44,350 bases of DNA, taken from contig JAGHCW010000066.1 of assembly GCA_021160245.1 (NCBI GenBank), positions 1 through 44,350 on the forward strand, written 5' to 3'. A program made the translations under genes and the position numbers. Under the pieces are notes generated by a model, which was not told the DNA's origin, did no database searches, and saw only the letters and a program-made list of their open reading frames with translations. Below are positions 8,399 to 44,350 of this stretch, piece after piece. Position 1 is the stretch's first letter, and the number at the start of each line of letters is the position of its first letter. The stretch comes from a bacterium (GTDB taxonomy: Bacteria > B130-G9).

Positions 8399-8399
8399 G

Positions 8400-8428
8400 T
8401 TGACAGTACGAGAGCCAGCGGTTACATT
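8400..8428 (+). promoter_or_regulatory. Promoter candidate for the nucleotidylyltransferase-glmS operon
   Basis: Perfect TTGACA (8400-8405), 17 bp spacer, TACATT (8423-8428, 4 of 6). It would give a leader of about 75 nt before the ATG at 8511. It faces a minus-strand promoter at 8447-8475. Confidence 0.5.
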
Positions 8429-8446
8429 TGATTCAGTACGCTTCAG

Positions 8447-8475
8447 AGTATCTATGTTTGCATTGTATGCGTCAA
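8447..8475 (-). promoter_or_regulatory. Promoter candidate for the membrane protein/glycosyltransferase pair
   Basis: On the minus strand TTGACG (8475-8470), 17 bp spacer, GATACT (8452-8447, 4 of 6). Transcription would start near 8440, about 40 nt before the gene. Confidence 0.45.
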
Positions 8476-8510
8476 CTGCGCACTGAGTAACGCGGGGGAT
8501 ATTATCTGAT

Positions 8511-9737
8511 ATGAAAGCGCTTATTCTCGCAGCTGGTCAAGGAGCTGGGCTTTCGCCGCTCTCCGATACTAGGCCTAAGCCAATGATTATTCTATCCGGG
8601 AAACCTCTGTTGGAGCATTCATTGGTTATGCTCAGGGAGACCGGAATTACAGATGTTGTGATAGTCGTTGGGCACCACTCCGAGCAGATTCAGGACTATT
8701 TTGGCCGAGGCGCGGCATGGGGTATGAGCATAGAATATGTTCATCAATCGACGCAGTCCGGCATTGGTGACGCACTACTTCTGGCCAGAGAGAGATTTCA
8801 TGGGCTTGATTACTTCGTTCTGTCTTATGGTGACACTGTCTTTTCGGAGAATATCTTCGCCCAATGCCTAGGATCATTCAGCGAATTCAAGAAATCGACG
8901 GCTGTTGTCGCGCTTGCTCAGAGCAGTGAGCTCTATGGCAATGTTTATATTGAGGACGAATCCCGTATATCACGGGTAGTTGAGAAGCCCAAGGGCAATC
9001 AGATGGGCAATTATGTTCTAGCAGGGACGTTCGTGCTTGGGGCGGAGTTCTTTGATCTCCTGAAGGAGAACGAGGCCAAAGCCGAGGCGGCGTTTAACGC
9101 GCTTGCGAAGAAGCAGGGGCTATACGCCACGATATGGGAGGAGGATTGGACGGACATGAACTTCCCATGGGACATCTTGCAGGCCAATAAGGTTCTTATG
9201 AGCGGATTTCGGGAGTCTCGAATCTCGAATCTCGCCAAGCTGGAGTCGAATGTCTCGTTCACCGGCCCTGTCCTTGTGGACGACTATGCCGAGATTCGGC
9301 ACGGCGCGGTTCTTAAAGGTCCTTGCTACATAGGCAAGCACTGCTTTGTGGGCCATAACAGCCTGATCCGGGAATACACATCTCTGGGTGACAGAACGAC
9401 AGTTGGATACGGCGTCGAGCTAAAAAATTGTGTGCTTTTTGGCAAAACCCGTATCGGACGGCTGTCCTTCATCGGTGATAGCGTGATAGGTGAGAACGCG
9501 ATCATCGGGTCCGGCACGATGACGGTAAACGAGAGCCTTAATGACGAACCTATATGGGTTGAGATTGGCGGCCGGAAAATGAGCTCAGACCTCTCTAAGG
9601 TCGGGGCGTTCTTGGGCGACAACGTCGTTATAGGCGCGAGCAATACGCTGTTGCCAGGGACACTGGTTCCGCCCGGCTCGAGGGTGCCCCACAGGGGAAC
9701 TCTCGATCGAGAGCGCCTCATAAAGGGGATGAAGTAA
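8511..9737 (+). CDS. Bifunctional sugar-1-phosphate nucleotidylyltransferase/acetyltransferase (GlmU-like)
   Basis: A 408-residue cytoplasmic enzyme with an N-terminal nucleotidyltransferase domain (about 1-240) and a C-terminal left-handed beta-helix of hexapeptide repeats (about 250-400). It resembles the archaeal-type bifunctional protein (Sulfolobus ST0452 class) that makes UDP-GlcNAc from GlcN-1-P. Seen: LILAAGQGAGLSPLSDTRPKP at the N-terminus, LSYGDTVF metal site, VEKPKGN, and hexapeptide blocks GPCYIGKHCFVGHNS and FIGDSVIGENAIIGSG. The signature G-x-G-T-R-L-x-P reads GQGAGLSP, so the usual Arg is Gly. The stop is one base before the glmS ATG, so both are co-translated and supply amino-sugar nucleotides. 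Exact substrate (UTP or dTTP, GlcN or Glc) is not fixed by sequence. Confidence 0.85.
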   Translation: MKALILAAGQGAGLSPLSDTRPKPMIILSGKPLLEHSLVMLRETGITDVVIVVGHHSEQIQDYFGRGAAWGMSIEYVHQSTQSGIGDALLLARERFHGLDYFVLSYGDTVFSENIFAQCLGSFSEFKKSTAVVALAQSSELYGNVYIEDESRISRVVEKPKGNQMGNYVLAGTFVLGAEFFDLLKENEAKAEAAFNALAKKQGLYATIWEEDWTDMNFPWDILQANKVLMSGFRESRISNLAKLESNVSFTGPVLVDDYAEIRHGAVLKGPCYIGKHCFVGHNSLIREYTSLGDRTTVGYGVELKNCVLFGKTRIGRLSFIGDSVIGENAIIGSGTMTVNESLNDEPIWVEIGGRKMSSDLSKVGAFLGDNVVIGASNTLLPGTLVPPGSRVPHRGTLDRERLIKGMK

Positions 9738-9738
9738 T

Positions 9739-11550
9739 ATGTGCGGCATAAGCGGAATAGCCGGGGGTTCAGATGTCACGAAGCGGCTTTATAGCTGCAT
9801 GTTGAACTTGGAGTATCGGGGCTACGACAGCTGTGGAATGGCCGTGGCCTCGGGCGGCGCCATCGAGGTCAGAAAGAACATTGGCCGGGTTGCTGAGGTC
9901 TTTGAGAAGGAGCGATTCGCAGAGCTGTCCGGGGAGACTGGCATCGCACATTCCAGATGGGCGACACACGGCGCGCCCAGCAAGGTTAACTCCCACCCGC
10001 ATACTAGTTCAGACGAGAGGATTGCCGTTGTCCACAATGGGATAATCGCCAACTATGTGAAGTTAAAGGAAATGCTCACAGAAAACGGCCACAATTTCAG
10101 GTCCGAGACCGATTCGGAGGTTATCGCACAGTTACTGGAGTTCCATCATAAGAAGCATGGCAATTTCGCGCGAGCCATCAGGGAGACCATGGAGGAGCTG
10201 GAGGGGACTTATGCTTTTGCCGCAGTGGTTGCAGAATCGCCAGACGTTATTTTCTGCGCCCGAAATAAGAACCCTCTCATCATCGGCGTTGGCAAGGATG
10301 CCAATTACGTGGCCTCAGATGTCGTCGCATTTATAGAATATACAAAGAATGTTGTCTATTTGAACGACAATGAGTATGCGGTCGTCTCCAAGGACAGTCA
10401 TCAGGTCTTTAGCGCTGCGACGGGCGCGCCCATGGAAAAAGAAATAGACGTCATCAATTGGGACGCTGAACAGGCCAAAAAGGGAGGCTATCCCCATTTC
10501 TTGCTCAAGGAGATATATGAGCAACCTACCGCAGTTCGGTCGGCGCTTCAGATACCGATAGAGGATATCGAGAGAATCGCCAAGATGGCCCAAGATGCGG
10601 AGCAAGTCTATCTGCTTGGCGTTGGCACTACATTCTATGTGACGATGCTCGCGCAGTATTACTTCAAGGAGATAGCGGGGGTATTTGCACCTTCGATCAG
10701 TTCCGATGAGTTCAGCTATCTCTGTAACGTAGATGAGAAGACGCTCGTTATTGCTATCTCACAGTCTGGCGAGACCTTCGATACGCTTGAGGCGCTGCGG
10801 TATGCCAAGGCGAATGGGGCAAAGACGGCGGCAATTGTGAACGCGCTCGGCTCAAGTATGACCCGAGAGGTGGACGAGGTTCTCATGCAAGGGGCGGGTC
10901 CTGAAAAAAGCGTTCTATCCACAAAGGCCGCCCTCTCACAGATTATCGTACTGACGCGGATTGCGATCTCTCTCGGGGAGATGCGAGGGTCGCTCTCCGC
11001 TGACGCTCGCGATGAGCTGAACACATCTCTCTGGGAGCTCGTGGATGTTCTCAGAAGATTGCTGGATGAGAAGCCGGGCTTCATAAGGCGCGTGGCAAAG
11101 CGAATTAGCTCATATACTAAGTGGCTTTTTATTGGGCGAGGTTACCACATGCCGGCTGCGCTTGAGGCTGCGCTCAAGCTCAAGGAGGTAACCTACATCC
11201 CGGCGGAGGGTATGCCCGGGGGCTTTATGAAGCATGGGCCCATTTCAATGATAGATGAGGACATGGTCGCGGTGGTCCTGATGCCGACGCCAGAGAACGA
11301 GCGGCTCTACAATTCAACTCTCATCAATGTATCTGAGATGAAGTCAAGGGGGGCCAAGCTCGTCGGATTTCACTTCAATCCTGACGAGAAGATATTTGAC
11401 GAGGACATTGTGCTGCCAAAGGCGCACTATCTGTTTGCGCCGATTCCGGAGCTTGTTGCAGGTCAGCTGCTTGCGTACTTCTGCGCAATTTTGCTGAAAC
11501 GTCATCCGGATAATCCGAGAGGTCTGGCGAAATCGGTTACGGTTGAATAG
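9739..11550 (+). CDS. glmS: Glutamine-fructose-6-phosphate aminotransferase (isomerizing)
   Basis: A 603-residue GlmS, which converts fructose-6-phosphate and glutamine to glucosamine-6-phosphate, the first step to UDP-GlcNAc. N-terminal class II glutaminase domain begins MCGISGIAGG with the nucleophile Cys2; GYDSCGMAV and HSRWATHG follow. Two SIS isomerase domains follow (SQSGETFDT near residue 340; AALEAALKLKEVTYIPAEG near 475), and the protein ends in the family signature LAKSVTVE. Length is standard. It starts one base after the upstream stop, with a purine-rich GGGGATGAAG just before it. No glmS ribozyme can exist upstream because that sequence is coding. All key motifs look intact. Confidence 0.96.
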   Translation: MCGISGIAGGSDVTKRLYSCMLNLEYRGYDSCGMAVASGGAIEVRKNIGRVAEVFEKERFAELSGETGIAHSRWATHGAPSKVNSHPHTSSDERIAVVHNGIIANYVKLKEMLTENGHNFRSETDSEVIAQLLEFHHKKHGNFARAIRETMEELEGTYAFAAVVAESPDVIFCARNKNPLIIGVGKDANYVASDVVAFIEYTKNVVYLNDNEYAVVSKDSHQVFSAATGAPMEKEIDVINWDAEQAKKGGYPHFLLKEIYEQPTAVRSALQIPIEDIERIAKMAQDAEQVYLLGVGTTFYVTMLAQYYFKEIAGVFAPSISSDEFSYLCNVDEKTLVIAISQSGETFDTLEALRYAKANGAKTAAIVNALGSSMTREVDEVLMQGAGPEKSVLSTKAALSQIIVLTRIAISLGEMRGSLSADARDELNTSLWELVDVLRRLLDEKPGFIRRVAKRISSYTKWLFIGRGYHMPAALEAALKLKEVTYIPAEGMPGGFMKHGPISMIDEDMVAVVLMPTPENERLYNSTLINVSEMKSRGAKLVGFHFNPDEKIFDEDIVLPKAHYLFAPIPELVAGQLLAYFCAILLKRHPDNPRGLAKSVTVE

Positions 11551-11638: not shown

Positions 11639-11706
11639 GCAGGGGCAGGTCTTGTGTCTGCCCGAATACGAATATATAGATGGGCGGAGACATTCCCCGC
11701 CCTTAC
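11639..11706. repeat. Double-hairpin intergenic element (REP/MITE-like)
   Basis: Two consecutive GC hairpins: GGGCAG...CTGCCC (11643-11663) and GGGCGG...CCGCCC (11682-11702). They are joined by an AT-rich linker and bounded by GCAGGGGC on the left and GCCCTTACA on the right, which are roughly inverted. The form resembles palindromic repeats scattered between genes in many uncultured bacteria. No second copy was found in this window. It could also act as a weak terminator after glmS, but no T-tract follows. Confidence 0.5.
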
Positions 11707-15165: not shown

Positions 15166-15219
15166 AAAAGCTCTGCTAGATTTGGGAATGACCAGAAAAA
15201 ATGAGAAGAGGTGTTTGTT

Positions 15220-18200
15220 ATGCGCCAGGCCTTCCGTGACAGAAAATGGATGTTAGTTGCTCTCATTTCAATGCTTTTGGCAAGCGGGGCGGTGACCGGA
15301 TTGCTCTATTCGGATTCCGCTTCCGTTCTTGATGAATTCTCACACAATGGCGAGGTCGCAGCACTTTCCGACTTTGAATCATCTGACAATTCGCCGATCT
15401 GGCAGCAGTTCGGCAACGACACGCGCCACGCTGCGCGTTCAGGATTAAGGGGCAGTCAGAGTTCGAGGTTGCGATGGAATTACGATGTATCAGGTTGGCC
15501 AGCGGAGCCTTCGGTTGCGATCTCGGAGGATGAGCATGTCTATCTCACAACATCACTCTATGGCTACGAAGGCTATCTCTATTGCCTTGATATGGATGGC
15601 CAGGATATCTGGTCCTATTTTATCAATTCCGACCTGAGATACCCGGCAATATCTGAAGACAGCGACCTGATTTACGTGGTCTCTGGTGACTTTCTTAATG
15701 CGATTGACCCTGACCGGACGTATCAATGGGGCCATTATATTGGGACCAACGGTAGTTTCACAGGGCCCACTGTAAGCGACGCTGGCCGCATCTATCTTGG
15801 CTATCAAGGCAAGCTGCAGGCATTCACATCATCTGGTCTCGCATGGTCCTATGATGTGCCGGGAACTTCTTACATCGACGATACACCGGTTGTCGATTCT
15901 GACGGCACGGCGTATTTCTCAGCCACTGATAGGAAGGTCTATGCGGTTCAGTCCGGAGGTACTCTGCAATGGACCTACAATGTCGCTTGGCCGGTGAGCT
16001 CGGTTCTTTCGATGTATGATGATGACAATATCTACTTCGGGACGGACAATTACAAAGGCACGGGGGAGAATGACTACGCTGAGCGCCTATTCGCACTCTC
16101 AGCTGGAGGAGCGCTCCTTTGGACGTTCGACGCGAATGATGGAATTGAGGCCTCGCCGGCGATTGCCGCGGACGGCTCAATCGTCATCGCAACAAAGGGC
16201 GGAAAAGTCTATTGCCTGCGTTCGGATGGGTCGCTTCGGTGGCTCTATGACCAGCCAGACACACCCATTCTAAGTTCTCCCGCAATTGATGTGGATGGCT
16301 CTATATACTTCGGTTGCGACAATGACATGTTCTACGCCCTGAACTCGTTTGGGATGTTGCTATGGACATACGATGTGGGGTATTCGATCAAGTCATCTCC
16401 GGCGATCGGTCCCCACGAAACCGTCATCTTCTCGTCGGACGGCGAGATAGTCCACTGTCTCGAATCCCTGCCTCGGCTTTCGGATGGCAAGGTCACTCCG
16501 AACGTCGGGGACGATGGCGATAGCTATACGTTCTCTGTCCACTATTATAGCCCAGCTCAGAGAGCCCCCTTCATGATAGTGGTTGATTCCAGCATCGGCA
16601 CCTACTCGATGACGCACGATCCGGACTCGGGCGATGACTATGATGGCATCTACATCAAGACAATAAGAAAGCCGAGGCAGGGATACCATAATTTCAAGTT
16701 CCAAACGCGAGACAAGGCGAAAGCTCAAACTGTCTATTTACCACCGAGTGGCACATTTCCCGGGCCCGTTGTGGACAACAACGGTGACTCTTATGAGAAT
16801 GATGACACCTGTGCGCAAGCCCAAGCGGGGCATCGATATATCTCGACTAACGGCCAACCGCAGTACAGAACGCTGCTCCCCGGGGACCACGACTGGGTGA
16901 TGTTCGAGGCGCAAGAGAATGTCTCGTATTTGGTGCGGACGGCGCTTGCTTCAACGGATTGCGACACAGTTTTACATATTTACGATCCGACGTGCTCGGA
17001 GGAGTTGGCCTTTGACGACGATTCGGGCTTTGGCCCGGCATCGCGCATTGAGTGGACCTGTCCGGAGGATGAGACCTATTTCATCTGGATACACCACCAT
17101 GATGAGTCGAGCGGCGCCGGCGAATACTATATCAATGTTGAGCCTGCAAGCTGGGTTTCCTTCAAGTGTGGCGGGTCCCGGCAATCTCGTTCGGCAGCGC
17201 TGGGGTGTCCCGGGGACAGTGTTGCCTGGTCGGTTGAGGGGGTCGGTTCAAGCCATGCGCCCGTCGTCGGGCTGGACGGATGCATCCATTCAGCGAACTC
17301 GGCCGGATGGCTTTACTCTCTCCAACCTGGCGGCTCAGTATCCTGGAGTTACAACGCCAATATGGCTCCGTACTCTGGGGCCGCTTTAAGTCGCTCTGGG
17401 GATGTCTTTGTGAAGTCCCAATATGGCTATGTCATCGCGCTGGATTCTGATGGGACACTCCGATGGACATTCGGTGTCGGCGACGACATCGGTGGATCCC
17501 CCATCGTAGGCATTGATGACACCGTCTATTGCTGTTCTGAGAACGGCTATTTATATGCTATTGACAGCGGCGGCTCGGGCAAATGGTCATTCGATTCTAC
17601 GCGCTCGATAGAATCGTCCCCAGCGCTTGGCGTTGACGGCCGCGTCTATATTGTCAACTCTTTCGGCTTCTTATTCAGCCTGGCAAGCGATGGCGGCTAC
17701 TTATGGTACAATGACCTCGAGGAGTCCGCATCAACAACGCCACTCATCAATTCGGCCGGAGAGGTTGTTGTTCTTGGGGACGGAGGAACGCTCTTCTGCT
17801 ACGGCCCGGATGGTTCCTGGCGATGGACCTATAACTGCTCAGGTGGTGACGTGACGGCGTCTCCGGCGCTTGGGCTCGATGACACAATTCTCGTTTCTAA
17901 GGGCGGTGGGATAGTGACGGCTGTTGCCTCTGACGGCTCCCTCCTCTGGACCTATTCAGGCGGCTTTGACCTGCATAGCACTCCGGCGGTTGACCGGGAT
18001 GGCTACATATACATAGGCGACTCAGGCTTGAAGTCGCTCACACCGGATGGTTCCGTGCGATGGACCTATGACACCGGCTCAGCAGCTAACTCGTCCCCTG
18101 CCATCGGCCCGGACGGGACGGTGTACATCGAGTCCAACTACCGCCTCTGGGCCTTCACAGAGGACGATATTCATCTCGAAAACGGCCTTGTTACGCCCGA

Positions 18201-21200
18201 GGCGGGCCGCTCCGATGAGACGTTTGCTTTCGAGGTTGACTACCACTCGAGCGCTCCACCGGTGCTAATACAGGTCGTAATCGATGGGACAGAACACGAT
18301 ATGTTCCTTTCCGACGACGACGCCAACGACGGCCATTACCGATTTGAGACCGACCAATTAGACCCGGGTGTCCGCGATTTCTATTTCTACGCCGAAAGTC
18401 CCACTGGGAGAAGTGGTCGAGAGCCCGACAGTGGCGCCCACGATGGCCCGGTCGTGGATGACACCGCGCCATCATCATATGTTCAATCCCCGGATTATTG
18501 TCTGGCGGGCGATATCGAGGTTTCGTTTGATTCCGACGATAACCTGAGTGGTGTTCAGCGCGTTTTGCTCTATTACTCCTTCGCCGGCGGTGGATGGACG
18601 CAATTCGCGGATGAGGCGGCAGCTGCGGGCACAGCTTGGCTCGCCCCGGCGGACGGGGACGGGACCTATGGAATCGCATCGCGCGCCCAGGACTTCGCTG
18701 GAAATTGGGAGCAATTCCCTCAGGCAGCCGGGGATACGACGGTTTTCGACTCAACAGCGCCGACATCGAGCTGCTCCTCCGACGCTTTTGCCCCGGATTC
18801 GCCGTTCCCCGTGGAGTTCACCGCCGATGATAATCTTGGCGGCATGGGGGTTGTTGAGCTCTGGTTCAGCAAGGACGCCGCGACATGGGCCTACTACGCC
18901 GAGATTCATGCCCAGACCGCTGGGACGTTCGACTTCACCCCGACTGGGGAGGGAGAATACCGATTCTACACAATCGCAACGGATGACGCCGGGAACCGCG
19001 AGGACCCACCCGGGCAGGCCGACAGCACAACGGTTTGCGACGCCACGAAGCCAACCTCGAGCTGCACATCCGTCGCTTACACATCCGCCTCGCCCTTCGC
19101 GGTGGATTTTATTGCGGATGATCCCATTAGCGGCGTCAACACAGTTGAGCTCTGGCTTCGTAAGGACGCCGGTACATGGACCTATTACAGCGAGTTCCAC
19201 TCCCAGACCGCTGGGACGTTTGACTTCACCCCGACTGGGGATGGTGAATACGAATTCTACACAATTGCGACAGATATCGTCGGCAATCGGGAGGACACAC
19301 CCGGGCAGGCGGATACCGCAACGGCCTATGAAACTGGGAAGCCCATATCGTCGTGCGAGACAACACAATACACCAAGTCCTCGCCCATAGCGGTTGATTT
19401 CAGCGCAGAGGACACTGGATTCAACTCGTCAGATGGGGATTCCGGAATCGAAAAGGTGGAGCTCTACTACCGCTTTGGGACCGACGCGGCCTTCAATCTA
19501 TTTGGCGACAAGACGGTCGCAAACGGCACATTCCAGTTCGACCTAGTGGCAGACCCGGGCAGGTATTACTTCTACACGATAGCTTATGACACGGCGGGCA
19601 ATGTCGAGGACCCACCAACTAGCCCGGACTGCGATGCGCATTATGATAACGTTCTGCCGACCTCGCTGTGTGACTCCGACCTGTATGTGGCCGGAGGGGA
19701 TATTGATGTCCGCTTCAATGCGGAAGACACGCATTCCGGGCTCGCGAGCGTTGATCTCCTGTGGCGCACTGACCAATCTGGCTGGACCGTATTTGACACC
19801 GTGAGCGGTCTGAATACCGGCTCGGCTCCATTTACTCCCTCCGGGCAGAATAAGTACTATTTTGCGACTCAGGCGAAGGACCGTGCCGAAAATATCGAGG
19901 ACTGGGACCAATCAGCGAAATCCTGGACACTCTATGATACAGAGCGCCCCGTCTCCGTGTGTTCCTCCCCCACATATTGCACTCCCGCAACTATTAGCGT
20001 GGAATACACCGCCTCGGACACCCTGAGCGGGGTGGCAAACGTTGAACTATGGTTCAAGCGTGACGCCGGGCAGTGGACATACTCGGGCCTCCGCTCCACA
20101 GATAGCACCATTGGCACGTTTGACTTTCGGGTCCCAGATGGGCATGGGACGTCGGGATTCCTCGCCGCAACGGACGGCCAGTACGAATTTTACACGATTG
20201 CAATAGACCGAGCGGGGCTGGTTGAGGACCCACCCGAGTCATCTGACTGCAGCACGGTCTCGGACGCGGGAAGACCCACTTCATTCTGCACCTCGGTGAC
20301 CTTCACAAACTCCTCCGCCATAAGCGTCAGGTTCCTGGCGACGGACTCGACATCGGGTATAGAATCCGTTGACCTCTATTATTTTGCCCCGGGTGCATCA
20401 GCCGCCTTTTGGGGATCAAGCAATTCAGGCACGGCTGGGGTCTTCAATTTCATCGCCACCGCCGAGGGCGAGTATTCGTTCTATACGATCGCCCACGATC
20501 AGGCGGGTAATACCGAGCAATACAGCGGGACGGCAGATAGCACAACCGTTTACGATTCGGCGGCTCCTGCCTCGCAGTGTTTTTCACCAACCCACGACTC
20601 GGGCGTAGTCATTGATGTGACGTTTGAGGCGCAGGATACTGCAAGTGGCGTCGCAGAGGTCGTGTTGTGGTTTAGATTCGACGGCGGCGTGTGGTCTGAT
20701 AGCGGCTACAGTGAGGCGAATAGCACCGCCGGGACCATCGCCTTTGCGCCGGGGAGCGGAGATGGCGAGTATGAGTTCTATACGATTGCGACCGACAGGT
20801 CCGGAAATGTGGAGCAGGCGCCTGCCCAGTCGGATACCGGCACACACTATGACATCACTGGTCCAACGTCGATTGCGCAATGCCCCGAGTTCGCTAATGG
20901 GTCACCAATTGACGTGAGATTTGAGGCTTCCGATGCCTCGTCAGGCATCGAGCGCGTTGAGCTCTGGGCTACAGGCGCGGCCGCAGCCTGGACGCACATC
21001 GATACCGAGTATGGGCTAACCCAAGGAACGTTCATTGTCCCCCTAGCGACAGAGGGCGCCCATGGTTTCGCGACGGTTGCTTATGACATCGCCGGAAACG
21101 GGGAGAGTTTGCCAGGACAGGCCGATTGCAGCTGCCTCTTCGACATCAGCGACCCGACATCGACGTGTGAGTCCCCTCAATATGCCGGCGCGCTACCGTT

Positions 21201-24200
21201 TGACGTCAACTATAGTGCAGCGGACGGCGCCTCTGGCGTCGGGGAGGTTGCCCTCTTCTACAGATCGGATGTTGATGACACTTGGCGACTTCACTCTGAG
21301 AGCACGGAGGGCACGGTCGGGGTATTCAGTTTCAATCTGCCGGCGCCTCCCGAAGAGAGACATATACGTTTTTCGTTTTACACTCTTGCGACCGACATAG
21401 CTGGCAATGTCGAGGCGCGACCAGCTGCGCCAGATTCGGAGACAATTCACGATCGCGCGGCGCCCACGACGTCGTGTATTTCCCCTACATACGCAAGCTT
21501 AGGAACGATACGGGTCTCGTTTGAGATAGAGGAGGGGATGGCCGGCCTGGAGTCTGCATCGCTATTTTACCGCACATCTAGCACGACTTGGAATCAGTTT
21601 GGCGGCACGACCACTGCCACTGTGGGATTCGTTGATTTCGCGCCCCTAGATGGGGAGGCGACCTATGAGTTCCGCGTCCAGGCCAGAGACCGATGTGGCA
21701 ACGTATCGTCCCCGTCCGACCCACGCAGTTCCACTGTTTACGACACGACATCGCCAACCTCGAACTGCTGGTCCGGTAGCTTCATAACCGAGCCTACTCT
21801 GGGACTGCAATGTTCCGCCTCGGATAGCCTGTCCGGTGTAGATAAGGTCAGATTCTTCTACAGGTATGAAAACGAGCCGTGGAGATCGACCGGCCTTGAG
21901 TCGCAGGGCGCGTCTGGGATTGTCCAGTTCGAGCCGGTGGATGGCGACGGCACGTACCGTTTCTTCTCCGTTGCGATGGACCGGGCCGGCAACAGGGAGA
22001 GCGTTCCACCCCAAGCGGATTGGACGCTTATCGTCGATCGGAGTTTCCCGAATCTATCCGATGGCACGGTGACGCCGGCTGGTGGTCCGCCGGGCTCCGA
22101 CTATACATTCAGCGTTCTCTATAGCGACGCTGATGGCCTTCCACCGTCGGAGAGCACCGTGGTTATTGACGGTAAGCAATGGTCTGCAGCGCTTACGGAT
22201 GGCCCGCCTGCCTCGGGGACTTACAGCTATACAAAGACTCTCGGATCGGGTATCCACAGCTATCATTTTCATTTCGTCGATGCCTTTGGACTTGTTGCCC
22301 GGTTTCCGGAAGTGGGGAGCGCTACAGGACCATCCGTAAACACAATACCGGAGCTCAGGGACGGAGGCGTAACTCCCGAGGTGGGGGACACGATTAGCGA
22401 TTATGAGTTCTGGACGGCGTATTATGATGAAGATGGCGACGTCCCCACTACCATGAACTTGATACTGGACGGGACGGTTCACGCCATGACCCCATCGCGC
22501 CGCACCCCATTGGACAACATATACATCTATACGACGAAGCTCGCTCGGGGTCCTCATAGTTACTTCTTCCGCTGTGATGACGGGCGAGGCGGCCTTGTCA
22601 GATTGCCGGCGGCGGGTCAATTCGACGGGCCTGTGGTGATGCAGGCGGATAGCGCTTCGCCATATTGCACGGACTTGGACCCCGGCGCGGGTGAGACGGG
22701 CGTTGATGGAAGCACGAGCGTCTTCCTAAAAATCCTCGATGACACATCCTCCATAGAGCAGAGCTCGATTGTCCTGAGCGTGAATGGGGTCGCGGTTGCC
22801 CCGATTATCAACCAGATTCTGAGAGGCTATTCGCTTTCCTATACCCCACAGCTCCCATTCCCGTCTGGAATGGAGGTGACGATTGGCGTCGAGGCGTGCG
22901 ATGATTCCGTCAGGCACAATTGTCTGGATGACTTTGGGTACACCTTCCTGGTTGGGGACAATCTTCCACCAGAGATTATTGGGCGACCTAATGTCGTCGC
23001 TTGTGATGACGCTTCCGCAATAATCCAGTGGTTTACGGATGAGGACTCCGATAGTCTCGTGGAGTACAAGGTGGAGGGGGGCGCCGCTGCCTCGACCGCC
23101 TCGTCAGTTATGTGCACGCGCCATCTGATGCAGCTTGTGGGTCTTGAACATGGCACGGCTTACTATTACCGAGTCTGCTCTACTGACCAGGCGGGGAACG
23201 GGCCGACTTGTAGCGCCTGGAAGAACTTCATAACTTCCGCCGCGCCGGATACATACGCTCCGAATGTAGTAATCGGGCCCGCCGCTCAGGCGATGACATC
23301 CGATCGGGTCACCATTATTTGGGTGACGGATGAACCCACCCGAGGGCGCGTGGAATTCACAACGGGCCTCAGGGCCTCAGAGGGTGCTGTTAACGATGGT
23401 TTCAGCCGCCGGCATCTGGTGAATCTTGGCGACCTTCCGCCAGACACTGAATACGACTGCAAAGTGGTCAGTGCAGATATGGCGGGGAACGTAACGCGCT
23501 CCCCAACCTTCCAATTCAGGACTACGCTTATGGCTGATACGCTTGCGCCAGTTGTTCTGGAGGGCCCGGCGGTCGTATATTTGACGAACGACAAGGCGCT
23601 GATCAGATGGATGGCGAACGAATTGAGCGTTGGCGCTGTCCAGTTCGGCAAGACTCCGACTTATGGGAATGTCAACGGCAGCCTCGTCGCTTCTATGCTT
23701 CACGGGGTATTTCTAACTGGATTGCAGCCTGGGACCGAGTATCACTACCGCGTTCTCACAAGAGACGTGCTGGGAAATGGCCCAAGTATCACCAAGGACT
23801 ATTCCTTCACGACTCTCCTGCAGCCGGATGATAGAGGTCTTTTCTGTATCTCCGGCCCAACATCCAGCTATCTGACGAATGTTTCCGCAAAGATAATTTG
23901 GACGACTGATCAGGTTGGGGATACAGAGGTGGTTTACTGGGAGGCAGGACTGAAACTTCCTGGCGTCGAGACGTGGCGTAACGCAGTTTACACTCGAGTT
24001 CATCAGGCGTTTCTTGGTAATCTAAAACCGAATACCACATATAACTACATGATCTCCTCGGCTGACCCGTCAGGTTATCTAATGGCCCCCTCTGGGGTGC
24101 ATAGTTTCAAGACCCTTGTATCCCCCGACACTGCTCCCCCAGGATTACTCGACGTTCAATGCTCATACAATGCTGGCGGCAAGGTCCGTATTGATTGGGC

Positions 24201-26091
24201 AACTTCGGAGCCGGCCGACAGCAGAATCGATTACTGGCGGACCGATGGAAAGCAGACTGGTAAGGGTAGTTGGGCCGGTTCGGAGAACAAATCCGAGCAT
24301 TCGGGTTGGCTTGATGATCTTGCGCTGGGCGCAGATTATGGCTATAGGATAGGCTCTGCGGACGCATCAGGCAATCTTTCTTGGTCTGAAGTCGGTGGTT
24401 TCTCTGCCAGTGGTCAGAGCGATGCTTTGCCGCCATCTTTCACGTCGGGGCCGGACGTGGAAACCACACGGGCGCCAGGGTGGGTCGCCATAGTCTGGAC
24501 AACTAGTGAAATAGCTGATACACTCCTTACTTTTCGGATGCAATCTCCACTGGCGGCCGAGGAGCGCCGCTGGGAGGACCCAGAGCATTCGATCGCACAT
24601 AGGGTCGAACTTGTGGACCTTAAGCCCGGGACTTACCAGTTCACCGCCACCTCCACTGACCCAGCTGGGAATGTGAGTGGATCGAACGGGGGAACCTTCA
24701 CCATCCCCGGTTCTGAAACGGCGCCCAGACTCTCGAGCTCCTACGTCTCGCCAACCCTCGGCGCCTCAACGACGGATTTTGAGTATGGCGTCTATTACTC
24801 CCATGGAACCGGATATGCGCCTCTCCGGTCAAACGTCTTAATTGATGGCGAGGCGCACCAGCTATCTCTCTCATCTGGACTCGGTAACAATGGCTCCTAT
24901 ACACTATCCACGCGCCTATCCGAGGGGACTCACAGCTATGTGTTTGAGTTCGAGAGTTCTTCAGGTCAGACTGTCAGAAGTCCTGAAACAGGGAGCAATG
25001 ATGGTCCGCTGGTTACGGCCGTTCCGAAGTTTGCGCTGGCCATCAGAACCGACAACGACAGCTATGATCTCGGGGATACCCACACGGTTTTTGTGGATGC
25101 GTCGAACGCCGGTGATCCATACGACGTTGACTTCTATGCGTGGGTGCAGACGCCCGATGGCTCCTTGCTTTACTGGCCGGGCTTTTCTGAGAATGCTGAG
25201 CCTCTGTCATTCCTACCCTTCCCGGGTGGGTCGGCCTTTATTGATTATGAGATACTAACCTACCCCATACCTGCCGGACTCCCTTCGGGCGAATACAGTT
25301 GGTTTGCGGCGATTAGTGAGCACGGAACACTCGATCCCATGTGCGGTATTGCATCGGCCCAATTTACGCTTGGGGAGTCGCCTCCTCAATTCTCGATAGA
25401 ACTCAATGACAGGCTATTTGCTCCTCACGACGAGATGCTGCTGCAGGCGTCGCTTTCGAACCCGGGGGGCGCGATTGATGTTGATGTTTATGTTAAAGCT
25501 GTTTTGCCGGACGGGGGCTCTTTATATTTGCCGGGACTATCAGCAGAGGCGACGCCGATGCCTATTTCTCTCTCAGCGGATTTCGAGCTCTCCAACTACG
25601 AGCTATTACGGTTGGAGGTGCCTGAGGGCTTGCCGGCTGGCAATTACAGATGGGTTGGATACCTCTGCGTTCACGGAACGACCGAGCGACTCGGGAAGGA
25701 GAGTGAGTCGCCTTTTGAGCTCTTCAACGTAACGATTGCCATTGCTACAGATAAAACCGAATACGTCGGACAGGATGTCGTTAGGGCTCTTGTGGATATA
25801 CACAATTACGGTCTAGATATAGACATTGACCTTTACCTGGCGGCTCTTCTTCCTGACGGTTCGTTAATATATCTTCCGGACTTGACTTCTACTATGGCGC
25901 CGTTCTATGAGTTCAGACCGTTGTCTCAAGGGGCTGTGTTGGAGGGGGTTACCGTCTTTGAGAGCGCTTTCCCGCCTGGGTCTGGTGCGGGGGAGTATTG
26001 CTTCTTTGTAGCATTAGTTGACCCGAGCACTGGTGATATGTCTGGGAAGCACAGCGCCGCTGCATTCAGCTATTCTAACAGCTCCAATTAG
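15220..26091 (+). CDS. Giant secreted multidomain protein (PQQ propellers, Ig-like and FN3-like arrays)
   Basis: A 3,623-residue exported protein. The ATG at 15220 has AGAGG 8 nt upstream and gives a signal peptide (basic RDRK, then a hydrophobic stretch to about residue 28). Approximate order: PQQ-like beta-propeller 1 (60-415; repeats like SSPAIDVDGSIYFG); a domain around TPNVGDDGDSYTFSVHYY (417-525); pre-peptidase C-terminal domain (525-645); propeller 2 (645-985); another TPE-type domain; twelve Ig-like repeats of about 95 residues (1085-2280); two more TPE-type domains; a bacterial Ig (Big_5-like) domain (2475-2585); six FN3/purple-acid-phosphatase-N-like repeats (2585-3170); one TPE-type domain; three related C-terminal beta domains of about 115 residues. 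No sortase, autotransporter or type IX signal is obvious. The likely role is adhesion or an extracellular matrix; no catalytic site was recognised. Confidence 0.9.
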   Translation: MRQAFRDRKWMLVALISMLLASGAVTGLLYSDSASVLDEFSHNGEVAALSDFESSDNSPIWQQFGNDTRHAARSGLRGSQSSRLRWNYDVSGWPAEPSVAISEDEHVYLTTSLYGYEGYLYCLDMDGQDIWSYFINSDLRYPAISEDSDLIYVVSGDFLNAIDPDRTYQWGHYIGTNGSFTGPTVSDAGRIYLGYQGKLQAFTSSGLAWSYDVPGTSYIDDTPVVDSDGTAYFSATDRKVYAVQSGGTLQWTYNVAWPVSSVLSMYDDDNIYFGTDNYKGTGENDYAERLFALSAGGALLWTFDANDGIEASPAIAADGSIVIATKGGKVYCLRSDGSLRWLYDQPDTPILSSPAIDVDGSIYFGCDNDMFYALNSFGMLLWTYDVGYSIKSSPAIGPHETVIFSSDGEIVHCLESLPRLSDGKVTPNVGDDGDSYTFSVHYYSPAQRAPFMIVVDSSIGTYSMTHDPDSGDDYDGIYIKTIRKPRQGYHNFKFQTRDKAKAQTVYLPPSGTFPGPVVDNNGDSYENDDTCAQAQAGHRYISTNGQPQYRTLLPGDHDWVMFEAQENVSYLVRTALASTDCDTVLHIYDPTCSEELAFDDDSGFGPASRIEWTCPEDETYFIWIHHHDESSGAGEYYINVEPASWVSFKCGGSRQSRSAALGCPGDSVAWSVEGVGSSHAPVVGLDGCIHSANSAGWLYSLQPGGSVSWSYNANMAPYSGAALSRSGDVFVKSQYGYVIALDSDGTLRWTFGVGDDIGGSPIVGIDDTVYCCSENGYLYAIDSGGSGKWSFDSTRSIESSPALGVDGRVYIVNSFGFLFSLASDGGYLWYNDLEESASTTPLINSAGEVVVLGDGGTLFCYGPDGSWRWTYNCSGGDVTASPALGLDDTILVSKGGGIVTAVASDGSLLWTYSGGFDLHSTPAVDRDGYIYIGDSGLKSLTPDGSVRWTYDTGSAANSSPAIGPDGTVYIESNYRLWAFTEDDIHLENGLVTPEAGRSDETFAFEVDYHSSAPPVLIQVVIDGTEHDMFLSDDDANDGHYRFETDQLDPGVRDFYFYAESPTGRSGREPDSGAHDGPVVDDTAPSSYVQSPDYCLAGDIEVSFDSDDNLSGVQRVLLYYSFAGGGWTQFADEAAAAGTAWLAPADGDGTYGIASRAQDFAGNWEQFPQAAGDTTVFDSTAPTSSCSSDAFAPDSPFPVEFTADDNLGGMGVVELWFSKDAATWAYYAEIHAQTAGTFDFTPTGEGEYRFYTIATDDAGNREDPPGQADSTTVCDATKPTSSCTSVAYTSASPFAVDFIADDPISGVNTVELWLRKDAGTWTYYSEFHSQTAGTFDFTPTGDGEYEFYTIATDIVGNREDTPGQADTATAYETGKPISSCETTQYTKSSPIAVDFSAEDTGFNSSDGDSGIEKVELYYRFGTDAAFNLFGDKTVANGTFQFDLVADPGRYYFYTIAYDTAGNVEDPPTSPDCDAHYDNVLPTSLCDSDLYVAGGDIDVRFNAEDTHSGLASVDLLWRTDQSGWTVFDTVSGLNTGSAPFTPSGQNKYYFATQAKDRAENIEDWDQSAKSWTLYDTERPVSVCSSPTYCTPATISVEYTASDTLSGVANVELWFKRDAGQWTYSGLRSTDSTIGTFDFRVPDGHGTSGFLAATDGQYEFYTIAIDRAGLVEDPPESSDCSTVSDAGRPTSFCTSVTFTNSSAISVRFLATDSTSGIESVDLYYFAPGASAAFWGSSNSGTAGVFNFIATAEGEYSFYTIAHDQAGNTEQYSGTADSTTVYDSAAPASQCFSPTHDSGVVIDVTFEAQDTASGVAEVVLWFRFDGGVWSDSGYSEANSTAGTIAFAPGSGDGEYEFYTIATDRSGNVEQAPAQSDTGTHYDITGPTSIAQCPEFANGSPIDVRFEASDASSGIERVELWATGAAAAWTHIDTEYGLTQGTFIVPLATEGAHGFATVAYDIAGNGESLPGQADCSCLFDISDPTSTCESPQYAGALPFDVNYSAADGASGVGEVALFYRSDVDDTWRLHSESTEGTVGVFSFNLPAPPEERHIRFSFYTLATDIAGNVEARPAAPDSETIHDRAAPTTSCISPTYASLGTIRVSFEIEEGMAGLESASLFYRTSSTTWNQFGGTTTATVGFVDFAPLDGEATYEFRVQARDRCGNVSSPSDPRSSTVYDTTSPTSNCWSGSFITEPTLGLQCSASDSLSGVDKVRFFYRYENEPWRSTGLESQGASGIVQFEPVDGDGTYRFFSVAMDRAGNRESVPPQADWTLIVDRSFPNLSDGTVTPAGGPPGSDYTFSVLYSDADGLPPSESTVVIDGKQWSAALTDGPPASGTYSYTKTLGSGIHSYHFHFVDAFGLVARFPEVGSATGPSVNTIPELRDGGVTPEVGDTISDYEFWTAYYDEDGDVPTTMNLILDGTVHAMTPSRRTPLDNIYIYTTKLARGPHSYFFRCDDGRGGLVRLPAAGQFDGPVVMQADSASPYCTDLDPGAGETGVDGSTSVFLKILDDTSSIEQSSIVLSVNGVAVAPIINQILRGYSLSYTPQLPFPSGMEVTIGVEACDDSVRHNCLDDFGYTFLVGDNLPPEIIGRPNVVACDDASAIIQWFTDEDSDSLVEYKVEGGAAASTASSVMCTRHLMQLVGLEHGTAYYYRVCSTDQAGNGPTCSAWKNFITSAAPDTYAPNVVIGPAAQAMTSDRVTIIWVTDEPTRGRVEFTTGLRASEGAVNDGFSRRHLVNLGDLPPDTEYDCKVVSADMAGNVTRSPTFQFRTTLMADTLAPVVLEGPAVVYLTNDKALIRWMANELSVGAVQFGKTPTYGNVNGSLVASMLHGVFLTGLQPGTEYHYRVLTRDVLGNGPSITKDYSFTTLLQPDDRGLFCISGPTSSYLTNVSAKIIWTTDQVGDTEVVYWEAGLKLPGVETWRNAVYTRVHQAFLGNLKPNTTYNYMISSADPSGYLMAPSGVHSFKTLVSPDTAPPGLLDVQCSYNAGGKVRIDWATSEPADSRIDYWRTDGKQTGKGSWAGSENKSEHSGWLDDLALGADYGYRIGSADASGNLSWSEVGGFSASGQSDALPPSFTSGPDVETTRAPGWVAIVWTTSEIADTLLTFRMQSPLAAEERRWEDPEHSIAHRVELVDLKPGTYQFTATSTDPAGNVSGSNGGTFTIPGSETAPRLSSSYVSPTLGASTTDFEYGVYYSHGTGYAPLRSNVLIDGEAHQLSLSSGLGNNGSYTLSTRLSEGTHSYVFEFESSSGQTVRSPETGSNDGPLVTAVPKFALAIRTDNDSYDLGDTHTVFVDASNAGDPYDVDFYAWVQTPDGSLLYWPGFSENAEPLSFLPFPGGSAFIDYEILTYPIPAGLPSGEYSWFAAISEHGTLDPMCGIASAQFTLGESPPQFSIELNDRLFAPHDEMLLQASLSNPGGAIDVDVYVKAVLPDGGSLYLPGLSAEATPMPISLSADFELSNYELLRLEVPEGLPAGNYRWVGYLCVHGTTERLGKESESPFELFNVTIAIATDKTEYVGQDVVRALVDIHNYGLDIDIDLYLAALLPDGSLIYLPDLTSTMAPFYEFRPLSQGAVLEGVTVFESAFPPGSGAGEYCFFVALVDPSTGDMSGKHSAAAFSYSNSSN
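18460..22045 (+). repeat. Coding array of twelve Ig-like repeats
   Basis: Twelve tandem units of about 93-108 codons inside the giant gene. Each starts near a P-T-S-x-C motif, has a DxxSGV-x-x-V-x-L core, an aromatic-rich middle, and ends with FYTIATD-x-AGN-x-E and a D-A/T-Y-D linker. Unit boundaries can be drawn at the P-T-S step. Divergence between most units is high, so the array is old, except units two and three. Confidence 0.85.
18911..19241 (+). repeat. Near-identical DNA block repeated at 291 bp
   Basis: The 40 bases at 18911-18950 recur at 19202-19241 with a single mismatch, a spacing of exactly 97 codons. Similarity is also raised in the flanks. This marks a recent duplication or gene conversion of one Ig-like unit. 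Confidence 0.8.
22965..24720 (+). repeat. Coding array of six FN3-like repeats
   Basis: Six units of about 95-105 codons of the giant gene, each with a W-x-T/A-D/S/N-E core (for example IIWVTDEPTRGRVEF and IRWMANELSVGAVQFG), an L-x-P-G/N-T-x-Y-x-Y step and a D-x-x-GN ending. This is the pattern of fibronectin type III or purple-acid-phosphatase N-terminal domains. Confidence 0.75.
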
Positions 26092-26108
26092 CGGGAGGTA
26101 GATAGACG

Positions 26109-29100
26109 GTGCATTGCCACCAATGCGGTGGAGCTGTCCAGGACGGTAGTAAGTTTTGCAGTAACTGCGGCGCTCCGGTTTCTAGCATTTGCCCCTCCTG
26201 CAAGGAGGATAACCCCCCGGCCAGCAAGTTCTGCTCTAACTGCGGTGCGTCTCTTTCGGGACCCAGCAAGGTTGCTCAGCCACCCGCCCCACCCAAAGCA
26301 GCAGCGCCTAAGCTTGATGGTGAGAGGCGTGTTGTGGCAGTCATATTCGCGGACATTGTCGGCTCGACCCCAATGGCGGAAGCGCTTGACCCGGAAGAAT
26401 TCAGAGAGGTCATGAACCAATGCTTCCATGTTTTGACGGGACCGATCATGAAGTACGACGGCATGGTGGATAAGTTCATAGGCGATTGCATAATGGCTCT
26501 TTTTGGGGCCCCGACGGCGCATGAGAATGATCCTGAACGAGCGGTTATGGCCGCTCTGGAGATGCAGCTTGCAGCTTCCGCGCTCAGGGAGACAATCGGA
26601 ATTCCGACAACCGAGCCAATCCGGCTTCGGGTGGGGATAAACAGCGGCATGGTTATCGCCGGCGATGTTGGTTCGCAGCACAAGCGCGACTATACAGCGA
26701 TGGGGCGAGTGGTGAATGTTGCCGAGCGGATGCAGAAGCTCTGCGAGCCTGGAAATGTGACCGTCTCTGATACGGTCTATAGAGCGACGAGGCAGCTCTT
26801 CGATTATGAGGACATGGGCAGCCATCCTGTCAAGGGGGTGTCTAGAGATGTCCATGTCTATAGGGCGGTCGCCGCTCGGAAGTGTGGTGGATCGACCAGA
26901 GGACTCGATGAGATCGGGTTCTCGAAGTTCATCAATAGGAAGGATGAACTTGAGAGCCTCAAGCGAACTGTCGACCGGGCATCTTCGGGCAGAGCATCGG
27001 TTGTCGCGGTAACGGGCCCCGCGGGGGTAGGAAAGAGCCGCCTCGTGAAGGAGTGCCAGCGGATAACAGAGCGGACTGGCACTCGCTGGTTTTGGGCGAG
27101 GTGCCTCGAATATCAGAGAAATATACCTTACTCCCCGGTCGCGCTGTTGCTTGAGCAGCTATTCGATGTGGAGTCGAAAGGCGCCGAGATCGACTCGACG
27201 CGACTTCGTTGTTTTCTCGGGGATGTCAGCGAAGAGGAACTGGCGCGTATATTTGATGGTCTTAAGTTCATTCTTCAAACTGATGATACATCTTCGGGAC
27301 GGGACAATCTTGAGGGTGAACAGGTCCAGAGATGTATATACGAGGCGGTCAATGGTGTGATTTCGGCGGCGCTCGCACCGGGCCCGCTATCGATTGTCAT
27401 AGACGACTTGCAGTGGTGCGACCGGGCGTCTCTCGAGCTCTTCTCGGACATTCTTTTTCGATTTTCATCGGCGGAGCTGACCCTTTGTGTAACGTATCGA
27501 CAATACTCCCGCCCGGACTGGTCAGGTCTTAGCGATGCTCGCGAGATACCTGTAACCCTACTTTCTGAGAGGGATTCGAAGATGTTGGTTTATTCAATTC
27601 TGGATAAGGCCAACGACCAGGAGAAGCTCAAGCGGATTCGCAGGATAGTTCTTGAGCAATGCGAGGGTAGCCCGCTTTTGGTCGAGGAGACGATCAAGCT
27701 CTTGATGGACAAAGGGCTTCTTGTGCGCTCTGCCGGGTCCTGGGATGTGCACGGGATTCCGGACCGCAAGCAGCTTCCGGACAGTCTGCGCGGCCTGGCG
27801 ATGGCGAGAGTCGATCAGCTTGCCGATGTTGAGAAGCTGCTCTTGCAGACGCTCTCCGCTCTTGGCACGGATGAGCCTCTTTCGGTAGTATCGAAGCTTG
27901 CTGGAGAACTTGAGATTGAGCTGACGAAGAGTTCTCTCTCGAGATTGGTGGAGCTTCAGATACTCAGGGAGAGGGATTCTGGCGACGGCCCGACCTATTC
28001 CTTCGAGGGCGAGTTTTTCCGCGATGCTATCTATGAGAGCCTATTGAAGAGGAAAAGACGACAGCTGCATTTGGATGCTGCGTCCTTCCTTGAGGAATCA
28101 ATGAGCCCCGGAGATAGGCGCCGTGCAGCCCTGTTGTCGCATCACTTTGAGCTGGCGGGCGATTTCGAAAAGGCGTGTGGGTACACGAAGGAAGCAGCGG
28201 CCCAGGCGACCGCTATATACGCAAACAGTGACGCTATTCATCTCTATGAGCGGAGTATCGAGCTCTTAAGGAAGTGGCAAGATGAGCCGGACTCTCAGGA
28301 GATACTGGACCTGATGAACAATCTGGCCATGGTTTACTACTTCACGGGAAACACGAAGCGGACGATTGAGGTCTTAAAGGAACAGATTGAGCTAGCTCAT
28401 AACGCGAATAACAATCTCTATGTCGCAAGGACGCATAACAACATCGGCCTGCAGCAGGAGCATGAAGGCAATTGGGGCGAGGCGAGAGGGCACTTTCGGC
28501 AAGCCGCTGACCTTGCGTGGAGGATTGGGGACAAGGCACTTACCGGCACCTGTTTGACGAATCTTGGCACGCTCGAAATCCGTGTGGGCTCTCTTAAGGC
28601 GGCCAGGAAATCACTCGACGAGGCTCTTCAGATTGCTCATAATACGGCATCCCCGGGAATAAAGTTCGACTCGCTCACAAACCTCTCGCTTCTTCACCTT
28701 TATCAATGTGAACTTCCCCGCGCAGAGGCCCTTGGGTGCGAGATCGAGGAGATTGCCGTTAGTCAGGGGGACGACTACAAGCGCGCCTGGGCGTCGCGAG
28801 TTCTTGGCGAGATTAGACTGCACCAGGGCCTCTTATCCGAGGCGTATCAGATGTTTGAGCGCTACCTCGATTTGAGTCTGAAGCTGGAGACATCTGACCT
28901 TCAATCCGCCGCTCACAGATTTCTCGCGGAAGTTGGTGGTCTATTTCGACCGGCCGAGGCCATGGTAGAGATGCTCAGACCTGCCCTTGGAAAGGCTGCC
29001 AGCTGCAACCATACTGAGCAGAAGCTCGAGGCGCTCGGTTGTCTTTCAGGCGCATTTTTGCACGGCGCGCAATTCGAGCTCGCTGGCAAGGTCGCCATCC

Positions 29101-29891
29101 GCCTAGTGAAGCAGGCGGAGGATTATGGTCACAATCATCTCAATATCACCGGCCTTTTGAGTCTAAGCGAGTGGGCGCTCGCAACAGGAGACCTGAGCTG
29201 CGCGGAGGAACAGCTCTTGAAAGTCGATCATCTACTTAAGTCATCAGGAATTCTACTTCACAAGCCGACGTACCTCCGGTGTTGCGCCCGGACGGCTCGG
29301 CTCTCTGGCCGCGGAGATGACGCGCTGCTTCTTGCATCAGAGTCGGTCGCTTTTTGCGAGGAGATGGGTCTGCGAGTTCTGCTGGCGGAGTCGCTTGTAG
29401 AGAAGTCGCTTGTCCATTTTGATCGAGCGGAGCATGAGATTTGCCGGGAGTGCTGCTTGAAGGGGATTGAGGTCTGCAGGGGCTTCATTTTTGGCGGAGG
29501 CGCCGATGAGGGCCGCCGGAGCATGACTTGGCAGGAGGAGGAGCTGCTGATAATTCTCGGGCAATCGCTTTGCATCGCAAGGCAGGATGATCTGCTGACG
29601 GAAGTGATAGCTGGTCTGAGCAACGTGGCGAGTTGCCCCACGTCGGTTATCAGGAAAGTAAAAGCGCTCTGCTTGCTGGATATCCTTGAGGGCTCAGACC
29701 AGGATATCGAGCACATTCTCGAGTGCTTCGGGGCCATTATGGGGCGAAGTAGGCCCAAAGACCTTAGAGATGGCATTCAGCTCGGCCTCGGGCTAACTTG
29801 GTTCGCGCGTCACATTGCGGAGCATGTTCACGACCACGCCTCGGAGGATAGGGTCAAGCGATTCGAGGCGCTCTTTTCTCAGCTTGCCTAG
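26109..29891 (+). CDS. Zinc-ribbon/class III adenylate cyclase/AAA ATPase/TPR regulator
   Basis: A 1,260-residue cytoplasmic signalling protein. Residues 1-50 hold two zinc ribbons (CHQC/CSNC and CPSC/CSNC). A class III nucleotidyl cyclase follows (about 70-250): metal-binding Asp82 (FADIVGS) and Asp126 (FIGD), base-specifying Lys122 and Asp194, and catalytic Asn203/Arg207 (VVNVAERMQ). This set predicts ATP as substrate, so cAMP is the likely product. Next a STAND/AAA_16-type ATPase with Walker A GPAGVGKSR (near 300) and Walker B SIVIDDLQW (near 430), then a long TPR region (about 690-1240; NNLAMVYYFTGNTKRTIEVL and similar). The start is GTG at 26109 with GGAGG about 10 nt upstream. It begins 17 bp after the giant gene's stop, so the two are probably one operon. 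Confidence 0.9.
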   Translation: MHCHQCGGAVQDGSKFCSNCGAPVSSICPSCKEDNPPASKFCSNCGASLSGPSKVAQPPAPPKAAAPKLDGERRVVAVIFADIVGSTPMAEALDPEEFREVMNQCFHVLTGPIMKYDGMVDKFIGDCIMALFGAPTAHENDPERAVMAALEMQLAASALRETIGIPTTEPIRLRVGINSGMVIAGDVGSQHKRDYTAMGRVVNVAERMQKLCEPGNVTVSDTVYRATRQLFDYEDMGSHPVKGVSRDVHVYRAVAARKCGGSTRGLDEIGFSKFINRKDELESLKRTVDRASSGRASVVAVTGPAGVGKSRLVKECQRITERTGTRWFWARCLEYQRNIPYSPVALLLEQLFDVESKGAEIDSTRLRCFLGDVSEEELARIFDGLKFILQTDDTSSGRDNLEGEQVQRCIYEAVNGVISAALAPGPLSIVIDDLQWCDRASLELFSDILFRFSSAELTLCVTYRQYSRPDWSGLSDAREIPVTLLSERDSKMLVYSILDKANDQEKLKRIRRIVLEQCEGSPLLVEETIKLLMDKGLLVRSAGSWDVHGIPDRKQLPDSLRGLAMARVDQLADVEKLLLQTLSALGTDEPLSVVSKLAGELEIELTKSSLSRLVELQILRERDSGDGPTYSFEGEFFRDAIYESLLKRKRRQLHLDAASFLEESMSPGDRRRAALLSHHFELAGDFEKACGYTKEAAAQATAIYANSDAIHLYERSIELLRKWQDEPDSQEILDLMNNLAMVYYFTGNTKRTIEVLKEQIELAHNANNNLYVARTHNNIGLQQEHEGNWGEARGHFRQAADLAWRIGDKALTGTCLTNLGTLEIRVGSLKAARKSLDEALQIAHNTASPGIKFDSLTNLSLLHLYQCELPRAEALGCEIEEIAVSQGDDYKRAWASRVLGEIRLHQGLLSEAYQMFERYLDLSLKLETSDLQSAAHRFLAEVGGLFRPAEAMVEMLRPALGKAASCNHTEQKLEALGCLSGAFLHGAQFELAGKVAIRLVKQAEDYGHNHLNITGLLSLSEWALATGDLSCAEEQLLKVDHLLKSSGILLHKPTYLRCCARTARLSGRGDDALLLASESVAFCEEMGLRVLLAESLVEKSLVHFDRAEHEICRECCLKGIEVCRGFIFGGGADEGRRSMTWQEEELLIILGQSLCIARQDDLLTEVIAGLSNVASCPTSVIRKVKALCLLDILEGSDQDIEHILECFGAIMGRSRPKDLRDGIQLGLGLTWFARHIAEHVHDHASEDRVKRFEALFSQLA

Positions 29892-44245: not shown

Positions 44246-44266
44246 GTCGAGTAGTTCAATCATTAC
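44081..44266. repeat. Imperfect inverted repeat sharing the intron 3' terminus
   Basis: The plus strand at 44081-44115 and the minus strand at 44266-44233 share the 13-mer TGAACTACTCGAC and, around it, about 30 bases with two substitutions and one 2-nt indel. The similarity continues past the predicted intron end into CCGCTTT. Confidence 0.75.
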
Positions 44267-44350
44267 TGATTTTCACCCTCACAGAACCGGACGTGCGGCT
44301 TTCCCGCATCCGGCTCTTCCAAGCAGGTAACCCGGATTTTGTCGAAACCA
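44246..44350 (-). mobile_element. Group II intron 3' end (domains V and VI), partial
   Basis: On the minus strand a 33-nt domain V is present at 44318-44286: GAGCCGGA pairs with TCCGGTTC, with a TGCGG/CCGCA inner stem, a GAAA-containing loop, a two-base CG bulge and the catalytic AGC near its 5' end. A domain VI stem follows (GAGGGT...ACTACTC), with a bulged A seven nucleotides before a putative 3' splice site after CGAC at 44246. The rest of the intron, including any reverse transcriptase, would lie beyond 44350. The class cannot be fixed from this piece; confidence in domain V is high, in the exact splice point moderate. Confidence 0.75.

Follow-up and report, generated by a model that had tools for sequence, protein, structure and literature searches.

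A giant, putatively exported repeat protein and a cyclase/STAND ATPase/TPR protein encoded side by side in an uncultured candidate phylum

Introduction

What might a predicted cAMP-forming signalling protein be doing next to a giant, putatively exported protein, and is their adjacency more than an accident of gene order? The question is raised by a locus in a 44,350-bp stretch of DNA, hereafter the window, which is the entire contig C162 of a draft genome (G000, 3.43 Mb, approximately 95% complete). The host lineage is an uncultured candidate phylum with relatives in Candidatus Coatesbacteria, a MAG of which is the nearest named relative by the cyclase gene in a genome-contig search. To our knowledge, the inputs of bacterial STAND/TPR cyclases are largely unknown, and it is rare for a conserved genetic partner to hint at the role of one such cyclase; the pair described here would set cAMP signalling beside the production of a giant envelope protein in an uncultured candidate phylum. 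The phylum-level comparison covers four incomplete draft genomes, namely the window genome G000, G001 (95% complete), G003 (83% complete) and G002, which belongs to the same family as G000 and to another genus.

Results

Anatomy of the giant repeat protein

The two open frames and the 17-bp gap between them, first pointed out in an earlier note on this DNA, are borne out by the sequence (Table 1). For the first gene, an alternative in-frame GTG start at 15211, upstream of the ATG at 15220, is also possible. The single N-terminal hydrophobic segment of the encoded protein, preceded by approximately 10 residues, reaches a Kyte-Doolittle 19-residue maximum of 2.2 at residue 11 (2.4 in the G002 ortholog) and represents either a cleavable peptide or an anchor; no lipobox was seen at the N-terminus and no C-terminal anchor was recognized. 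The PQQ/BamB propellers and the Big/Ig and FN3-like domains all score above the Pfam cut-offs, which upholds the two propellers assigned earlier, whereas the PPC domain named along with them stays below threshold (14.2 bits vs a cut-off of 25.9), its sequence being nonetheless PPC-like in appearance. Iterated self-profiles yield 12 OmpL47/Big-type repeats, five of a second Ig type, six FN3-like and three C-terminal repeats, and together with one probable Big domain the total comes to approximately 27 Ig/FN3-like domains, in agreement with the initial count of more than 20. Further large proteins of this phylum contain relatives of the C-terminal repeats; a single-sequence fold of the three gave a pLDDT of 38 and was discarded as uninformative.

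Table 1 Features of the two-gene locus in the window.
Feature	Position	Strand	Basis
Shine-Dalgarno-like GAGGTG, 5′ of ATG 15220	15208..15213	+	Sequence
Giant repeat protein (putatively exported), 3,623 aa	15220..26091	+	Open frame, ATG start; colinear G002 ortholog
Positively charged N-terminus and hydrophobic segment, residues 1-33 (signal peptide or signal anchor)	15220..15318	+	Kyte-Doolittle
First PQQ-type beta-propeller, ~residues 60-416	15397..16467	+	Pfam Beta-prop_ACSF4/PQQ_2
PPC-like domain, residues 558-622 (weak)	16891..17085	+	Pfam PPC E=0.084, below cut-off
Second PQQ-type propeller, ~residues 707-981	17338..18162	+	PQQ_2, BamB models
12 tandem OmpL47/Big-type Ig repeats, ~97 aa each	18469..22044	+	Domain models, iterated self-profiles
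6 FN3/purple-acid-phosphatase-N-like domains	22993..24705	+	Pfam, iterated self-profiles
3 C-terminal repeats, ~90 aa each, without Pfam family	25096..26070	+	Iterated self-profiles
17-bp spacer with GGGAGGT (26093-26099)	26092..26108	+	Sequence; no terminator or promoter-like site inside
Double zinc ribbon - class III (IIIb-type) cyclase - AAA/STAND ATPase - TPR protein, 1,260 aa	26109..29891	+	Open frame, GTG start; Pfam; G002 ortholog
Double zinc ribbon, residues 2-46	26112..26246	+	Pfam Zn_Ribbon_1, DZR; 63% identical in G002
Class III cyclase domain, residues 75-246	26331..26846	+	PF00211 (Guanylate_cyc) E=6e-29; best solved relative CyaB 3r5g; 77% identical in G002
AAA_16/NB-ARC-like STAND ATPase, residues 273-449	26925..27455	+	Walker A GPAGVGKS, Walker B IVIDD
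TPR region, ~residues 734-997, boundary approximate	28308..29099	+	TPR_12, TPR_MalT

The cyclase/STAND ATPase/TPR protein

The second gene encodes a protein in which the zinc ribbon/DZR, Guanylate_cyc, AAA_16 and TPR_12 models all match above the Pfam cut-offs. The catalytic set of the cyclase, which had been proposed to be intact, is so: Asp82 and Asp126 would bind the metal, Lys122 and Thr196 the substrate, and Asn203 and Arg207 would act in the transition state, and all six residues are conserved in G002. By the threonine at the sixth, substrate-binding position, which was not among the five residues named earlier, the domain classifies as a class IIIb cyclase, and the Lys/Thr pair suggests ATP as the predicted substrate. 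The central region carries the marks of a STAND ATPase, i.e. Walker A and B motifs, similarity to AAA_16 (83.5 bits, above the cut-off) and to NB-ARC (22.9 bits, slightly under the cut-off of 23.5), and C-terminal superstructure-forming repeats (TPR_12, 66 bits). Hydrophobicity analysis revealed no convincing membrane segment, the two most hydrophobic stretches being the strands that lead to the Walker B motif and to the cyclase metal site, and a Pfam search found no DNA-binding domain of the MalT type. An antisense open frame at 26088-26855 was set aside, as it probably just mirrors the coding frame.

The solved structures that match the cyclase domain best are class IIIb adenylate cyclases (CyaB 3r5g, 1wc0 and 2w01), which share the metal-binding Asp pair, the Lys/Thr pair and the Asn/Arg pair; unlike them, the window cyclase shares its polypeptide with zinc ribbons, a STAND ATPase and a TPR region. 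A likeness in architecture is offered by the soluble adenylyl cyclase ADCY10, in which the cyclase is followed by a P-loop ATPase and a TPR-like region. The ADCY10 cyclase domain (4clf) matches that of the window at E ~1e-9, whereas the window protein has one cyclase domain instead of two and has zinc ribbons in addition. The TOMM system kinase/cyclase fusion model (TIGR03903) likewise aligns through the cyclase, AAA and TPR regions (residues 50-847); membership in this family was rejected, as the match scores 253 bits vs a cut-off of 705.75, begins at model position 262 and comes without a kinase domain. No TOMM genes were recognized among the scanned neighboring genes. Assignment to the Pycsar defence systems, in which a pyrimidine cyclase stands beside a TIR/TM effector, was also rejected, since the PycC models match the generic cyclase domain only (76.7 bits) and the giant protein has no PADLOC match.

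The junction of the two genes

The short spacing of 17-23 bp, which is conserved and includes Shine-Dalgarno sequences, argues for a single transcript, and the two genes form a two-gene unit, probably transcribed as one. Separate transcripts, with a terminator and a promoter in the spacer, had been named in the earlier note as a refuting finding; the gap of only 17 bp excludes the two together between the genes, and neither was found there. The terminator-like site at 26133-26147 lies within the cyclase coding region and was rejected, and such sites are not greatly in excess of chance (19 observed vs 13.3 expected, sd 4).

Conservation of the pair in a second genus

The adjacency of the two genes is retained in G002. 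Its contig C201 (11,835 bp) carries a complete and colinear ortholog of the giant protein, 3,814 residues long and 47% identical across 3,589 aligned positions; it has two additional stretches, each 97-98 residues long and of the size of one Ig repeat. The stop codon of this gene at position 11672 is followed by a 23-bp gap with a Shine-Dalgarno-like AGGGGAT sequence and then by a GTG that opens VHCSQCGTSVPDGSKFCCGCGAKLSAVCPSCQAECPPGSRFCGNCG, which shares 63% identity with the beginning of the window cyclase protein; the contig ends there, after the first 46 cyclase residues, which begin with VHCSQCGTSVPDGSKFCCGCG. The end of another G002 contig, C199, opens at approximately residue 60 of the cyclase protein, the remainder of which is 56% identical to that of the window. 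Between the two contig ends, which have no overlap, approximately 13 cyclase residues are unread, but we strongly infer that they join into one locus. A genome-contig search with the cyclase protein returned a G002-type contig as the sole match.

Comparison of G000 and G002 at the codon level gives 66% identity for the giant gene and 75% for the cyclase gene at second positions, vs 34% and 37%, respectively, at third positions, which indicates purifying selection on both proteins. At four-fold sites the two genomes agree at close to the random level (26% identity in the giant and 32% in the cyclase gene), and dN/dS was left uncomputed because of this near-saturation of synonymous sites. Being conserved in another genus, both genes are real far beyond chance.

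The flanks, as far as visible, have changed in the meantime. Downstream of the cyclase gene the window has a convergent glycosyltransferase gene, whereas G002 has a same-strand gene for an ECF-type sigma factor without a close counterpart in G000. Upstream of the giant gene the window has divergent LPG-synthase and TatC genes, a pair that G002 and G001 retain, though beside other genes; the G002 contig C201 begins 227 bp 5′ of the giant gene, which restricts the upstream comparison to the window. As the adjacency persists at near-saturation of synonymous sites while the visible flanks differ, the two genes have been maintained together as a unit. A conserved operon is recognized when gene order, strand and close spacing persist in a diverged relative whose flanking genes differ; G002 shows all of these, and the operon-like unit proposed in the earlier note, for which conserved adjacency had been set beforehand as the refuting test, has withstood it. 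At the end of the window contig, a group II intron match of 62 bits (Rfam) is located at 44246-44318 on the minus strand.

Distribution of the pair and of its components

The pair is present in two genomes, G000 and G002. Neither an ortholog of the giant protein nor a full-length ortholog of the cyclase protein was found in G001, and in G003 no full-length cyclase protein and only a truncated piece of the giant protein were found. This C-terminal piece (43% identical; L034:675-3440, G003:C327) is preceded by the end of an RND-transporter gene and followed by a convergent hydrolase gene, and no cyclase adjoins it; either it is a decayed copy, i.e. a pseudogene remnant, or the short contig is chimeric.

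Each component is commonplace, the giant PQQ/Ig proteins in these genomes and the cyclase/AAA/TPR proteins in bacteria at large. Large exported proteins with the same kinds of PQQ, Ig and FN3 domains as the giant protein and up to ~6,000 residues long are numerous in G000-G003, and among 17 other large PQQ/Ig open frames examined in G000 none of the 12 with a visible next gene is followed by a cyclase. Giant repeat proteins abound in the phylum genomes, and contig C84 of G001 has open frames of ~6,000 residues with the same PQQ/Ig repeats. Matches to the cyclase protein occur in 88 of the 116 sampled genomes, and many cover no more than the cyclase domain. Of 58 homologues checked outside the phylum, 53 have a visible upstream open frame, and in none of these (0/53) does it encode a giant PQQ/Ig protein. 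In one genome of another phylum (G033:C22), the gene of an SprA-like outer-membrane protein of 1,867 residues (L114:2283-7886) precedes a cyclase/AAA/TPR homologue (7893-11001) by 6 bp, and in G106 PQQ-repeat proteins whose C-terminus is T9SS-like (L106:1-390; L149:5141-6415) are encoded near two different cyclase/AAA/TPR genes. Both arrangements differ from the pair described here, the PQQ-repeat protein of G106 being small.

Within the genomes sampled, the pairing therefore looks restricted to this lineage, and its parts are of known kinds. The suggestion that the locus represents an undescribed system holds insofar as no comparable pair is seen among the 53 homologues of other phyla and no description of one was found in the literature, but what is new is confined to this lineage. 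Judged from sequence, the locus is a genuine and conserved unit of two genes, which combines known parts in a way that we have not found described; its predicted function is discussed below.

Discussion

We favor, at a probability of roughly 45%, a cytoplasmic cAMP switch that is expressed alongside an exported scaffold and is tuned to the making or export of this scaffold. The first gene would supply a very large exported, periplasmic or surface-located, scaffold or adhesin-like protein and the second the cytoplasmic switch. By analogy with other STAND proteins, binding of a ligand, protein or peptide by the TPR half might lead to nucleotide exchange and oligomerization of the ATPase, which would bring the N-terminal cyclase domains together in pairs and allow cAMP to be made. 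Cotranscription would ensure that production of the giant protein is always accompanied by the switch, and the cAMP would report on, or adjust, the state of the cell during production or export.

The main rival, in our judgment a less probable one, is that the zinc-ribbon/STAND/TPR protein works like the MalT-type STAND regulators and governs how the giant protein is produced, with cAMP or the ATPase as the regulator. The linked gene order, the AAA_16 and TPR_MalT-like similarities and the cyclic nucleotide-binding (cNMP-binding) proteins of the genome are all consistent with such feedback; however, no DNA-binding domain of the MalT kind was found, a downstream position is less usual for an operon regulator, and most zinc ribbons of this type serve as contact modules. 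More improbable still is signalling from surface contact as worded in the earlier note, whereby the giant protein would bind a surface or polymer outside and pass the signal to the cyclase inside. The pairing is conserved and propeller, Ig and FN3 domains are well suited to binding, yet the giant protein has just its one N-terminal hydrophobic segment with some ten residues before it, and no convincing membrane segment was seen in the cyclase protein. How either protein would cross the membrane is thus not evident, which makes direct transfer of a surface signal unlikely without another partner, and such a transmembrane protein would have to be encoded by an unlinked gene.

A shared operon inherited without any functional relation, to which we give similarly poor odds, would fit the restriction of the pair to two genomes, its lack of counterparts in other phyla and the different neighbors of the other big PQQ/Ig genes in G000, but an adjacency that outlasted the near-saturation of synonymous sites and the change of the visible flanks counts against it. 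The narrow distribution also speaks against the co-expressed switch that we favor, as do the non-overlapping contig ends on which the linkage in G002 rests and the C-terminus of the giant protein that G003 retains without a cyclase, albeit as a truncated copy or on a chimeric contig.

The output of a co-expressed switch would run through cNMP-binding proteins, and one candidate is an MscS channel with a C-terminal cNMP-binding domain, encoded in both G000 (L188:478-2010, G000:C225) and G002 (L189:3994-5508, G002:C240). The protein was not found in G001 or G003, so that it co-occurs with the pair across the four incomplete genomes, and we regard this co-occurrence as no more than a lead to a possible link with the pair. 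Bacterial cyclic nucleotide-gated (bCNG) channels of the MscS-cNMP type have been described previously (Caldwell 2010 and Malcolm 2012, as cited in PMC4560390). A lineage-specific signalling module, with a STAND protein akin to soluble adenylyl cyclase that senses how a giant surface scaffold is made or exported and addresses a cyclic nucleotide-binding mechanosensitive channel through cAMP, would link envelope construction to turgor or envelope tension, and is a long shot. A further class III cyclase is present in G000, and cAMP is consequently not specific to the two-gene unit. Elsewhere in the same genome (L190:941-5430, G000:C91), the gene of an exported-looking protein of 1,344 residues overlaps the start of a gene for a small stand-alone cNMP-binding protein of 152 residues.
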